A stretch of 64,000 bases of DNA from Methanolinea sp. (GTDB lineage: Archaea; Halobacteriota; Methanomicrobia; Methanomicrobiales; Methanospirillaceae): assembly GCA_018263335.1 (NCBI GenBank), contig JADFCY010000005.1, positions 36,466 through 100,465 on the forward strand. The letters run 5' to 3'. The translations under genes were made by a program, and so were the position numbers. A model generated the notes under the pieces. The model was not told where the DNA came from. It saw only the letters and a program-made list of their open reading frames with translations, and searched no databases. This document shows positions 38,871-44,246 of the stretch, piece after piece (positions within the stretch are counted from its first letter, which is position 1; every line of letters begins with the position of its first letter).

Positions 38871-39998
38871 ATGGTTCCGCTAGGTTCAAGGCAAGACCGG
38901 GACAAGATCATCATCACTGGAGAGACTGTGAAAGAGGGGGGAGGATCGAACGGGGAGGGGGGTGCCGCCGGAAGCCTCTGGCGACACGTACTCGACGCGA
39001 TGCCCGGCCCGGTCATCGTCGTTGACGCCGAAAGAAAGGTACTTTACGTGAATCCTGCCATGGCCAATCTCTGCAATCGCGCCGATGCGGCGGGGTTGGC
39101 CGGGAGGCCTGCGGACGAGGTGCTCGCGCCCCTGCCGTTCGAGGTGCAGAGGGCGCTCCACTCGGTACTCCGGACGGGAACGCAGGTGAGCTCCTCGATC
39201 ACCTGGAGAGAGTGGGAGAAGGGACCGATAGTCCTTGATAGCAGCGCGTTTCCCATCTCCCTCCCGGGGAAGGGACCCCTGGCTGCCGCGGCCTGGACCG
39301 CCTCGGTCCACCCAGCAGAGTCCCCCGACCAGGAAGACCTGGCAATAGAAGCCTCACGGAAGAAGGGAAAGGACCTCCTCTCGGTGGTCAGGCACGATAT
39401 CCTCAACCAGCTGACCATCCTTATCGGGTTCCTCCAGTTCTCAGAGGACTTCATCGACGACCCGCAGGTACGGGAGTTCCTTTTAAAGGAGGAGGCTGCA
39501 GGACAGGTCATCCAGGCGCTGATCGAGTTCACCCGCGACTTCCAGGACCTCGCGGTCGAAGACCCGCGCTGGATGGTCCTTGATTCGGTTGTGGCGTCTG
39601 CACGGGAGAGAGTGGACGCAAAGAGCGTCACGATCGTCACCGATCTCGGCGCGACCGAGGTCTACGCAAGCCCCCTCATCCGGCACGTCTTTGTCACCCT
39701 GATCAAGAATGCACTGGACCATGCCCGCGGGCTGACCCGCATCGCCATCTCCGCGGAGAGGGAAGAACGCGACCTTGTGGTGGTCTGCGAGGACGACGGC
39801 CCGGGCATCCCCGAGGCCGAGAGAAAGACCCTCTTTGACCGTGGACACGGCAGGAACAGGGGGTACGGCCTCTGGCTTGCAGGGGAGATCCTCTCCATCA
39901 CGGGTGCCTCGATCCGGGAGGCCGGAAGAATGGGCGGCGGGGCAAGGTTCGAGATCCGCATCCCCCAGGGGATGTGGCGGGACGGCAGGCCCCGCTGA
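38871..39998 (+). CDS. PAS-domain histidine kinase
   Basis: RHDILNQLTILIGFL H-box; HVFVTLIKNALDHA N-box; VCEDDGPGIPEAER G-box. Confidence 0.92.
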   Translation: MVPLGSRQDRDKIIITGETVKEGGGSNGEGGAAGSLWRHVLDAMPGPVIVVDAERKVLYVNPAMANLCNRADAAGLAGRPADEVLAPLPFEVQRALHSVLRTGTQVSSSITWREWEKGPIVLDSSAFPISLPGKGPLAAAAWTASVHPAESPDQEDLAIEASRKKGKDLLSVVRHDILNQLTILIGFLQFSEDFIDDPQVREFLLKEEAAGQVIQALIEFTRDFQDLAVEDPRWMVLDSVVASARERVDAKSVTIVTDLGATEVYASPLIRHVFVTLIKNALDHARGLTRIAISAEREERDLVVVCEDDGPGIPEAERKTLFDRGHGRNRGYGLWLAGEILSITGASIREAGRMGGGARFEIRIPQGMWRDGRPR

Positions 39999-41666
39999 TC
40001 AGGCGATCTCCTGGACTATCCGCCCGTCCTTGAAGATCGAGATCTTCCCCCCGCTCTGCGAGAGGACGATGCCGATGGCCCTCGTGACGAGGGTGATGCC
40101 CGCCACCGAGGAGTGCCTCGTTCCAAGCCCTTTCTGGATCCCCACCCTGCTCGTGTCGATGGTGATGTAGCGGGCGGCAGCCTCTATCCTCCCGTCACCC
40201 CTGACGACAAACGCGCCGTCGAGCTGTGCCAGTTCCTTGATGTTCTCCTTGATGTCGTGGTTCGTGATCATCCGGTCCGCGGCCGGGTGGCCCTCGAAGG
40301 GGTTGAGGATCAGCTGCTTTGACTTGACCAGCACCGCGTCAGAGTCGCCGATGACAAACGCGGTCCCCACCTGCTTGCCTTCCCTGCCCTCCTTGGCGAT
40401 CTCGATGCAGATGTGGAGGACCGAGTCAAAGACCTCCTCGCGGACATCGGTGCCTGCGATCACGGTGTCGCGCCACATCGCCGTGCTTATCCGGCGGCGT
40501 TCCCTGTGCTCGTGGTCGGTGATGTCGTGGCCGATGCAGACGACCTCGTCAAGGTGCCCGTCCGCGTTGCGGATGGCGCGGGTGTGCCAGGCGACCCAGG
40601 CAGGTTCCCCCCCACGGACCTGCATCTCGTAAATCCGAAGCCCTCCCCCTTCGTGGGTCGCGCCCGGGTCGGCGACGAACGCCGGGGAAGATTTTCCCAG
40701 CTTCTGTGGGAGGAGGGTGTCGCGGATGTTCTTCCCGAGGATCTCGGCCTCGGAGTACCCGAAGAAGGCCTGCGCATGCTTGTTGAAGAAGGTGATGACC
40801 CCCTCCGGGTCGAGCTTGACGATCAGGCTCGAGGCGTTCTGGAGGAACTCCCGGTACCGGAGGTCGCTCTCCTTCTGGGCCTCGGCGAGCCTCTCCTGCT
40901 CGGTCCGGTCCTCGCAGACCAGCACCTGGCCCCGGGAGGGGTCCGAGGGGTCCATCGCCCGAAGGCTCAAGCGGCAGGGGATGAGTGTCCCGTCCTTTCT
41001 CTTCAGCACCGAGTGCGCGTGCCCCCATCCCTGGTCGTCAGTCCTGTGCCCGAGCTCTCGGAAGGCCCGCTCGAACTCATCGGCCCCGGGGAATATCTTC
41101 TGGACTCCCTGGCCGGCGAGCGACCCCGCGTCAAGCCCAAGGCCGCGTGCCATCGTTGAATTGACCCATTCGAAGACTCCGCCACGCACCTGGCAGATCC
41201 AGAGGGGAGAGACCGAGAGGATCGCAGAGAGCATGTCGGATCGCAGGACCTGGTCGCGCTCGGCCTTCTTCCTGAGCACTGCCTGGTAGATCATGTCGCG
41301 CATCTCTGCAATGGGCGCACCCGTTCCTCCGCCGTTTCCGCGGGCTTCTGTCGCGTGGTGGACGTCCTCGATGAGGAGGGTGTCCCGGTCGGTCCGGTGG
41401 TAGAGGATGAACGGGAGGCCCCCGTGGGTCGCCTTGAGATCCCGCAGGAGTTCTGCGCCGGTCATGTCGGCCAGGAACTCGATCCCGTTGATCTCGGGCA
41501 GGCGGAAGTACGAGATGATGATGTCGTATCTCCTCCGCCTCGCCATCTCCAGGGCCTGCTTCGTGGAGTGCACGGTGTCCACCCGGATCTCTCCCATCCG
41601 CTCCAGGTAGGCCCTGGTGCTCTCGATGGCATCGCTGTTGTCGTGCACGAGAAGGACAGTGATCAT
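39999..41666 (-). CDS. Degenerate receiver-PAS-PAS-diadenylate cyclase (DisA_N/DacZ-like) protein
   Basis: N-terminal REC-like fold lacking the phospho-Asp; two PAS; C-terminal GTAFVIGDSDAVL, DGAFVVRGDGRIEAAARYI, GLGTRHSSVAGIT. Confidence 0.88.
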   Translation of the reverse strand: MITVLLVHDNSDAIESTRAYLERMGEIRVDTVHSTKQALEMARRRRYDIIISYFRLPEINGIEFLADMTGAELLRDLKATHGGLPFILYHRTDRDTLLIEDVHHATEARGNGGGTGAPIAEMRDMIYQAVLRKKAERDQVLRSDMLSAILSVSPLWICQVRGGVFEWVNSTMARGLGLDAGSLAGQGVQKIFPGADEFERAFRELGHRTDDQGWGHAHSVLKRKDGTLIPCRLSLRAMDPSDPSRGQVLVCEDRTEQERLAEAQKESDLRYREFLQNASSLIVKLDPEGVITFFNKHAQAFFGYSEAEILGKNIRDTLLPQKLGKSSPAFVADPGATHEGGGLRIYEMQVRGGEPAWVAWHTRAIRNADGHLDEVVCIGHDITDHEHRERRRISTAMWRDTVIAGTDVREEVFDSVLHICIEIAKEGREGKQVGTAFVIGDSDAVLVKSKQLILNPFEGHPAADRMITNHDIKENIKELAQLDGAFVVRGDGRIEAAARYITIDTSRVGIQKGLGTRHSSVAGITLVTRAIGIVLSQSGGKISIFKDGRIVQEIA

Positions 41667-41793: not shown

Positions 41794-43119
41794 CTATCTT
41801 CCCCTTCCCTTCGCGCTGCTGCCGGGGAGCATGCCGGCCTGCATCCTGAAGAGGGCAGCGGCGACTTCAAGCGAGGTGTACTCGTCTCCCATCACCTGCT
41901 CTACCCTGGCGATGTAGGGCTCGAGGTTTCCGGTTGCGATCTGCTCCCGGATCCTCTCCATCATGTTCACGATCCGCCTCTCGCGGAGGTCCTCCTCGGC
42001 AGGAACGGCATGGCGTGCGATCCGGATCTTTGCAAACTTCTGGATGTCCCGCAGTTTCCACATCTCTTTTCCGGAGACGAAGGTGAAGGCCTTGCCGGAC
42101 TTGCCGGCCCTGCCGGTCCGCCCGATGCGGTGAATGTAATACTCGGGGTCCTGGGGGACATCGTAGTTGAAGACCACCCCGACCTCCTCAACATCGATGC
42201 CGCGGGCGGCGACATCGGTTGCAACCAGGATGTCGGATGTGGCCGCACGGAACCGTGACATCACCCGTTCCCGTTCTTTCTGGTCCATGTCGCCGTGGAG
42301 TGCCTCGGCGAGGTACCCGCGGGCCTGGAGCTGGGTGCAGACCTCGTCAACTTTGCGCTTCGTGTTGCAGAAGACGAGCGAGAGTTTCGGGTTGTAGAAG
42401 TCGATGAGGCGGGAGAGGACCTCTACCTTGTCGGACTCACGCACTTCGAAGTAGCGCTGTTCGATGAGGGCAGGGACCTCGAGCCTTCCGTGGACGACCT
42501 TGACCATGCGGGGGCTCTTCAGGTACTTCTGAGTCAGGGAGAGGATCTCCTTTGACATGGTCGCAGAGAAGAGGACGGTCTGGCGTTCGGCGGGGGTGCG
42601 CTTCAGGATGAGCTCGATGTCTTCGCGGAACCCCATGTCAAGCATCTCGTCGGCCTCGTCGAGCACGGCGAGGCGTATCCCGGAGAGGCTGATGGTCCGG
42701 CGGTCGAGGTGGTCGATCAGCCGGCCGGGGGTGGCGATGATGATCTGGACGCCCTTTTTGAGGACTGCTATCTGGCGCTCGATCGGCTGGCCGCCGTAGA
42801 CGGGGAGGATGGTGATCCCCCGCAGGTACTTTGCCAGTCTGCGGAGTTCTTCTGAGACCTGGATTGCAAGTTCCCGCGTGGGGCAGAGGACGACGGCCTG
42901 CACTTCCTGTCGGGATGCGTCGATATGCTCAAGGAGCGGGATGCCGAATGCGGCCGTCTTCCCGGTCCCGGTGTGGGCCTGGCCCACCATGTCGTGGTGT
43001 TCGCGCATGACAGGGATGGCAAGCGACTGGATGGGGGTCGGCTCCTCGAAGCCCATATCGAGGACTGCCCGCATGAGCGGTTCGGGGAGGTCAAGATCAA
43101 CAAATGAGATGGTTTTCAT
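41794..43119 (-). CDS. DEAD-box ATP-dependent RNA helicase
   Basis: GQAHTGTGKTAAFG; LDEADEMLDMGF; FSATMS; HRIGRTGRAG. Confidence 0.95.
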   Translation of the reverse strand: MKTISFVDLDLPEPLMRAVLDMGFEEPTPIQSLAIPVMREHHDMVGQAHTGTGKTAAFGIPLLEHIDASRQEVQAVVLCPTRELAIQVSEELRRLAKYLRGITILPVYGGQPIERQIAVLKKGVQIIIATPGRLIDHLDRRTISLSGIRLAVLDEADEMLDMGFREDIELILKRTPAERQTVLFSATMSKEILSLTQKYLKSPRMVKVVHGRLEVPALIEQRYFEVRESDKVEVLSRLIDFYNPKLSLVFCNTKRKVDEVCTQLQARGYLAEALHGDMDQKERERVMSRFRAATSDILVATDVAARGIDVEEVGVVFNYDVPQDPEYYIHRIGRTGRAGKSGKAFTFVSGKEMWKLRDIQKFAKIRIARHAVPAEEDLRERRIVNMMERIREQIATGNLEPYIARVEQVMGDEYTSLEVAAALFRMQAGMLPGSSAKGRGR

Positions 43120-43311
43120 GTACATGTTCCGTGGTGTCGGGCATTCTTCCAGGAGGTATTTTCGGTCGCGATTCCTTATCCCGGATCGTGCTGCAGGAAT
43201 AATGTCCCCTTCCCCTTAATAGCAATTTGCGATGGGTATCCTGATCACGGGAGCAGGCGGAACCTGCGACCGGGCATACTCTCCGGGCAATTGCACCCCC
43301 AGGGGCCCTGG

Positions 43312-44133
43312 TCAGTCCCTGATGACCACCGAGGCTCTCTCATCGAAGGGATTGGTGCGGAGCGCGAGGGAGTAGAGGTAGGGGTAGTGGCGTTTCAGGT
43401 GGACGAGGTATACGGTCCACTCGATGACCAGGAGGCCGTAGACGCGGCTCAGGTCCCCGGAGAGGTGCGCCGTGTCGGACTCGGGAAGGCAGGAGAACTC
43501 ATCCCGGTGCGAGAGCTCCTGCCAGAGGTGGAGCAGCGCCTGGAGCAGGTCGCAGAACCGCGAGTGTTCCTCGAGGTCCGGGTTCTGGAGGAGAACAGTC
43601 AGGACATCGACCTTCTCCCCCAGGGTGTCCCGGAGGGCTGCGAGGTCGAGGGCCCGGCAGTCGAGGTGGTATGACCGGGACGCGAGCGCGCCGGTGATCC
43701 CGGCGGACGCGGGGGAGTCCGCGAACGTTGGCCCCGACAGGAGGCGGGAGAGATCCTGGCGGCCAGGGTCAGCCCGTGCGCAGGTCGCAAGGAGCGAGGT
43801 GCCCACCTGCGTGAAGAAGATCCCGACCAGCATCAGGGTCTTCTGCCGCCGCCGTGCCCGCTCCTTGTGGAATGAGATGTGCTCGACCACGTTTGCGACG
43901 AGGCCGACGAAGCAGCCCACTCCTCCGACGATCACGGCGACTGCAAGCACCTTGCCTGCCTCTGTTGCCGGGTGGAGGTCCCCGTACCCTACTGTCGCGA
44001 TGGTCACGATGGTGAGGTAGAACGAGTCGAGGGGGGTGAACCCTTCCAGCAGCGAGAACCCCGCAACCCCGATGACCACGACCGAGAAGAGGAGGACAAT
44101 ATACGCCTGGAGCCTCCGTTCATACGAGCCCAT
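43312..44133 (-). CDS. Two-TM ion channel (K+ channel-like) with long cytosolic C-terminus
   Basis: TIVTIATVGYGDLHP selectivity filter. Confidence 0.85.
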   Translation of the reverse strand: MGSYERRLQAYIVLLFSVVVIGVAGFSLLEGFTPLDSFYLTIVTIATVGYGDLHPATEAGKVLAVAVIVGGVGCFVGLVANVVEHISFHKERARRRQKTLMLVGIFFTQVGTSLLATCARADPGRQDLSRLLSGPTFADSPASAGITGALASRSYHLDCRALDLAALRDTLGEKVDVLTVLLQNPDLEEHSRFCDLLQALLHLWQELSHRDEFSCLPESDTAHLSGDLSRVYGLLVIEWTVYLVHLKRHYPYLYSLALRTNPFDERASVVIRD

Positions 44134-44246
44134 CTGGTGAAAGGGTCGCCCTGCATCGATGATAAACCTCACCTCCGCGAATGCGGCCCGTGTCCTCCTC
44201 CGCACCCTTCATCACCTCGCGCACCCTCCTTAACCCTGTGGAGACC

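Follow-up and report, generated by a model that had tools for sequence, protein, structure and literature searches.

A DacX-type candidate sensory diadenylate cyclase with an aspartate-less pseudo-receiver and tandem PAS domains in Methanolinea

The window analyzed here is a 64,000-nucleotide stretch of Methanolinea sp. DNA (assembly GCA_018263335.1, contig JADFCY010000005.1, positions 36,466 to 100,465 of the forward strand). It contains a gene, hereafter that of the window protein, in which a pseudo-receiver and two PAS domains precede a C-terminal diadenylate cyclase (DAC) domain (Table 1). The reading frame begins with ATG and the N-terminal MI[ST]VL is common to the orthologues. The protein aligns end to end with 47 relatives at 44-87% identity, which excludes a chance match. 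The original prediction, made from the sequence alone, placed two PAS domains and a receiver-like domain ahead of a DisA_N-type C-terminus with DGA and GTRH motifs, and profile searches bear this out. With Pfam, Response_reg matched residues 4-69 at 40.7 bits (cut-off 30.2), two PAS stretches scored over their cut-offs (PAS_9, 73.4 bits) and DAC/DisA_N (PF02457) matched residues 424-549 at 71.5 bits (cut-off 27), with both motifs intact; with NCBIfam, the PAS S-box model (TIGR00229) matched twice. The NCBIfam DacZ model scored 113.9 bits over residues 405-554, for which the full-length equivalog cut-off of 430 lies far above. The predicted DacZ/DisA_N match therefore holds for the DAC domain, which is DacZ-related, and not for the protein itself, which has no DacZ_A domain and belongs to a separate clade.

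Table 1. Positions of the cyclase gene, its domains and motifs, and the adjoining genes in the window.
Feature	Position	Strand	Evidence
Pseudo-receiver-PAS-PAS-DAC gene, 555 aa, candidate sensory diadenylate cyclase, DacX type	39999..41666	-	Pfam, NCBIfam, full-length alignment
Pseudo-receiver domain, residues 1-116	41319..41666	-	Pfam Response_reg, AlphaFold, Foldseek
Tyr53 codon TAC at phospho-Asp position	41508..41510	-	Translation; alignment of DAC-fused receivers
PAS domain 1, about residues 140-262	40881..41249	-	Pfam/TIGR00229, predicted model
PAS domain 2, about residues 263-392	40491..40880	-	Pfam/TIGR00229, invariant columns
DAC (DisA_N) catalytic domain, residues 405-555	40002..40454	-	PF02457; PDB CdaA matches, E 7e-9
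DGA motif, residues 483-485	40212..40220	-	D and G invariant, 48 orthologues
GTRH motif, residues 515-518	40113..40124	-	G515, R517 and H518 invariant, 48 orthologues
PAS-HisKA-HATPase histidine kinase, convergent with DAC gene	38871..39998	+	Pfam, synteny
DEAD-box RNA helicase (DeaD type)	41794..43125	-	Pfam, synteny
Potassium-channel-like protein (Ion_trans_2, TVGYGD filter)	43312..44205	-	Pfam, synteny

The gene order is conserved through most of the genus and runs from the potassium-channel-like gene through the helicase, the DAC gene and the convergent kinase to a phosphomethylpyrimidine-kinase-like gene. The channel-like gene lies two genes upstream of the DAC gene, and the C-terminal ~180 amino acids of its product gave no Pfam match. 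Comparisons were extended to family f1, which comprises 17 genera including Methanolinea, Methanoregula and Methanospirillum. The helicase adjoins the DAC in six genera of f1; the histidine kinase does so in most relatives within the genus, and the Methanospirillum DAC also has a related kinase beside it. An operon uniting the DAC and kinase genes is ruled out by their convergent orientation.

The position at which a receiver carries its phospho-accepting aspartate is occupied by Tyr53, at exactly the codon where it had been predicted. All 78 distinct DAC-fused receivers that were aligned lack Asp at this site: Tyr is found in 60, Phe in 3 and Cys in 3, and the remainder are Asn (5, paralogues), Gly (3), His (1), Leu (1) or a gap (2). 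As an in-genome control, the other receivers encoded in the same genome were inspected, and Asp is kept in 24 of 24. Set against that control, its absence from all 78 DAC-fused receivers indicates from the alignment that the acceptor was lost early and that the Tyr is ancient; it also rules out a sequencing error or a recent mutation at Tyr53. The conservation of Tyr among orthologues, which the original prediction proposed to check, was thus upheld, with Asn in the paralogue, which likewise has no Asp. It had been noted further that the codon is one base from GAC. The codon is indeed TAC, but since the Thr and Lys sites are changed as well, a single-base change would not restore a working receiver.

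Of the features of a phospho-acceptor receiver (Asp, acidic pair, Thr/Ser and Lys), the domain retains one acid in LVHDN, a reduced form of the acidic pair; the Thr site is Tyr and the Lys is absent. Its receiver sequence and fold without a phospho-Asp are those of an aspartate-less pseudo-receiver as defined in a 2025 review (PMC12632262), which knew of no archaeal pseudo-receiver with a published function. With the Asp missing, the expectation that the domain is not phosphorylated stands for phosphorylation of the standard kind. An AlphaFold model of residues 1-155 (pLDDT 83) was searched with Foldseek, and the PDB matches listed were all receiver proteins, with E values down to 2.7e-5. By this model the receiver fold is kept: it is predicted at the start of the domain, a beta hairpin (residues 96-101 and 106-110) replaces the helix 4/strand 5 region, and a long helix (residues 117-152) leads into PAS domain 1.

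The arrangement of the domains is not given by the predicted full-length model, for which pTM was only 0.45, and a fold search with it returned generic PAS-PAS matches only (DosP, FixL, MmoS and NifL). Judged by invariant columns in the orthologue alignment, PAS domain 2 is better conserved than PAS domain 1. In the 48-orthologue alignment neither PAS domain has an invariant His such as would mark a haem PAS, and no invariant residue marks any other known PAS cofactor.

Several lines of evidence point to a functional catalytic domain. D483, G484, G515, R517 and H518 are invariant in the 48 orthologues, and the domain matches CdaA crystal structures in the PDB (Table 1). Values of dN/dS, calculated against seven relatives, were lowest for the DAC domain, at about 0.03-0.18, while the remaining domains stayed below about 0.55; dN was likewise lowest in the DAC domain. 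All domains of the protein are under purifying selection. Note that while DGA and RH are intact, the motif that reads RHR in bacteria ends in Ser here, at a position that is variable in other archaeal DACs, and that in the VSE of CdaA/DacZ the Glu after the Ser is replaced by Gln in the clade of the window DAC.

The assembly (99% complete) holds two DAC genes. The second, on contig C24 (L002:190-1896(+) / L032:3588-5393(+)), also encodes a pseudo-receiver-PAS-PAS-DAC protein, in which DGG stands in place of DGA and Asn occupies the phospho-Asp site. With this second DAC, the window protein would not be alone in supplying c-di-AMP in its own genome. Paralogues of this type occur in five genus members and form a single clade (SH-aLRT 100). 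The closest named DAC sequences to the window DAC are those of Methanoregulaceae archaeon PtaB.Bin056 (DAC 98% identical) and Methanolinea sp. A separate dacZ elsewhere in the genome, another point the original prediction wanted settled, was sought by profile search: no stand-alone DacZ and no DacZ_A match were found in the assembly, the other DAC being the paralogue of like architecture.

Counts for f1 were made from 59 genomes of at least 90% completeness. DacZ_A scored over its cut-off in one and was missing from 58. A single DAC match was obtained in 28. Twenty-six of those matches are orthologous to the window protein and carry Tyr, Phe or Cys at the phospho-site; the remaining two are a TPR-DAC (L060) and a truncated frame (L324). 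Haloferax cannot lose its stand-alone DacZ, which is essential (PMC6741144), and it follows that in those 26 genomes the window-type orthologue, judged by sequence, is probably the active housekeeping cyclase that makes the cell's c-di-AMP. A few genera carry DacZ-type DACs, some with N-termini that DacZ_A does not recognize (L056, L058 and L082). Other families of the order typically have a stand-alone DAC of about 270-300 amino acids, for which DacZ_A was confirmed in L095.

A tree was constructed from 140 DAC domains, with no bacterial outgroup. DacZ-type DACs (34) lie on one side of a branch with SH-aLRT 100, and the window DAC and the other fused DACs lie on the opposite side. The fused clade is represented in f1 and f3, by single genera in f2 and in f5, and by Methanoperedens-type genomes (f33). 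Some of its members resemble receptors, with PKD (L034, L042, L055 and L059) or TPR (L064 and L067) regions that are predicted to be extracytoplasmic and flanked by two transmembrane segments, the DAC being cytoplasmic. In f3, among order relatives, TrkH (155-163 bits) is fused in one frame to a C-terminal DAC (L094:3336-5411(+), L273:368-2566(-) and L110:3180-5321(+), the last labelled by its sequence and tree position); such a protein may be a transporter that makes its own c-di-AMP signal. One further frame (L238:911-2722(+), 604 aa) joins an AAA ATPase with a Vps4_C match to a DAC. Its sequence is identical to that in L191, from Candidatus Methanoperedens sp., and another DAC from that genome (L239) matches MIT weakly. 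Across the wider clade the DAC would thus appear to be an interchangeable output module, attached to PKD/TPR receptors, TrkH or a Vps4-like AAA ATPase.

Genomes G016, G015 and G034 are those that we take to be Methanoregula boonei, Methanosphaerula palustris and Methanospirillum hungatei JF-1, respectively. The only DAC of G016 (L057) is a receiver(Tyr)-PAS-PAS-DAC protein 47% identical to the window protein. Braun et al. 2019 (PMC6741144) list the archaeal DAC classes DacV, DacW and DacX of Corrigan and Gruendling 2013 with representatives, that of DacX being M. boonei A7I8S2. This accession presumably denotes L057, the single DAC in its genome. Since the single DAC of M. boonei has the architecture of the window protein, DacX is presumably the class to which the window protein belongs; the two differ in genus, and the 2013 class is compared here through the citing paper. 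DacV most likely corresponds to the PKD-DAC found in M. palustris (L055). Multi-domain control in an archaeal DAC had been put forward as notable. The architecture is not new, for DacX was catalogued in 2013 according to the same paper, but our literature search for studies of PAS-linked archaeal DACs found none. The window protein thus adds one member to a class that has been catalogued and, as far as that search shows, is apparently uncharacterized.

By NCBIfam the nearest named family is DacZ/CdaZ (Haloferax volcanii and Methanocaldococcus jannaschii), a known enzyme converting ATP to c-di-AMP, to which the window protein is likened by its sequence. DacZ is about 270-300 amino acids long with a PK_C-like/DacZ_A N-terminus, which the window protein lacks, and the two DACs fall into the separate clades described above. 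The bacterial enzymes CdaA, DisA and CdaS share the DGA and RH(R) motifs and need a head-to-head dimer, but have other regulatory domains, and the window DAC scores only about 35-39 bits against CdaA by sequence. Tandem PAS domains joined to a cyclic-dinucleotide enzyme are found in DosP and other PAS-linked c-di-GMP enzymes, a likeness of architecture; their catalytic domain and second messenger differ, and the window PAS domains have no conserved haem His. FixL also has tandem PAS domains, and it and DosP were among the top fold matches of the window model. In PleD (receiver-pseudo-receiver-GGDEF) a pseudo-receiver helps to dimerize a cyclic-dinucleotide synthase (PMC12632262); PleD also owns a working receiver, whereas the window protein has none.

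We favor, with a probability of about 0.7, a reading in which the window protein is a working DacX-type diadenylate cyclase, one of two in its genome, that is regulated through a stalk by its PAS domains and whose c-di-AMP serves potassium and osmotic control. DAC domains require a head-to-head pair (PMC8573169); two C-terminal domains paired in this way would make c-di-AMP from two ATP, and unpaired domains would make none. The pseudo-receiver, the long helix and the tandem PAS domains would form a dimeric signaling stalk. One or both PAS domains would sense a cytoplasmic cue, and this would shift the stalk such that pairing is favored or blocked. The receiver fold would have been retained as a phosphorylation-independent element for dimerization or docking. 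Alternatively, the protein could be a constitutive housekeeping cyclase in which PAS domains and pseudo-receiver only dimerize or anchor, c-di-AMP being set by the phosphodiesterase and by gene expression. Its orthologues' role as sole DAC in 26 good f1 genomes would suit such an enzyme, as would a phosphorylation-dead receiver and PAS domains with no invariant residue typical of a known cofactor; but the tandem PAS is kept across f1 at dN/dS below 0.55, and the same DAC clade is fused to plainly sensory modules (extracytoplasmic PKD/TPR and TrkH), and we consider this alternative unlikely.

It is considerably less probable still that the receiver remains a phospho-input, with the neighboring or another kinase phosphorylating Tyr53 or some other residue, or docking and relaying its state. 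The kinase that lies beside the DAC in most genus relatives, and its relative by the Methanospirillum DAC, would be suited to this role, but none of the Asp, Thr and Lys sites is preserved, and the Tyr is itself exchanged for Phe or Cys in orthologues and for Asn in the paralogue. Because the two genes are convergent rather than in one operon and the supposed target Asp is absent, neighboring kinase and pseudo-receiver are unlikely to be a signaling pair. Hardest to credit is a degenerate DAC domain, acting as a nucleotide receptor or inhibitory partner and not as a synthase. RHS in place of RHR and Gln for Glu beside the conserved Ser are what such a domain might show; against it, D, G, R and H never vary among the 48 orthologues, dN is the lowest of all domains, and no other DAC was found in 26 good f1 genomes.

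Under the favored reading, a sensor-regulated cyclase, c-di-AMP would act on potassium and osmotic control. The genome encodes TrkA_C transporters and, on contig C1 (L285:967-2436(-)), a TrkA_N-DHH-DHHA1 protein that is a GdpP-like candidate c-di-AMP phosphodiesterase; by family-level comparison, it is possible that these degrade or bind c-di-AMP.

We know of no account of what sets c-di-AMP levels in archaea. That question and the function of archaeal pseudo-receivers meet here in one soluble protein, which is the sole DAC found in many species. Since a window-type protein is often the only DAC in close relatives, a fundamental signal of the cell is probably coupled directly to a sensor. The present analysis contributes the finding that loss of Asp is conserved, checked against the other receivers of the genome, together with the absence of DacZ, the genomes that have a single DAC and the range of DAC fusions. 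A broader proposal, which we offer tentatively and hold at somewhat under even odds, is that f1 lost its stand-alone housekeeping DAC and replaced it by sensor-fused cyclases from a separate, fast-diversifying clade of swappable outputs (pseudo-receiver-PAS-PAS, membrane PKD/TPR and TrkH; compare GGDEF in bacteria). In that case c-di-AMP would be a true environmental signal, and the pseudo-receiver would have lost its Asp early and functioned without phosphorylation since. Apart from these proteins, a very divergent DAC of 339 amino acids (L071:4983-5999(-)), on a branch of >2.6 changes per column, was found as the third DAC of genome G024.
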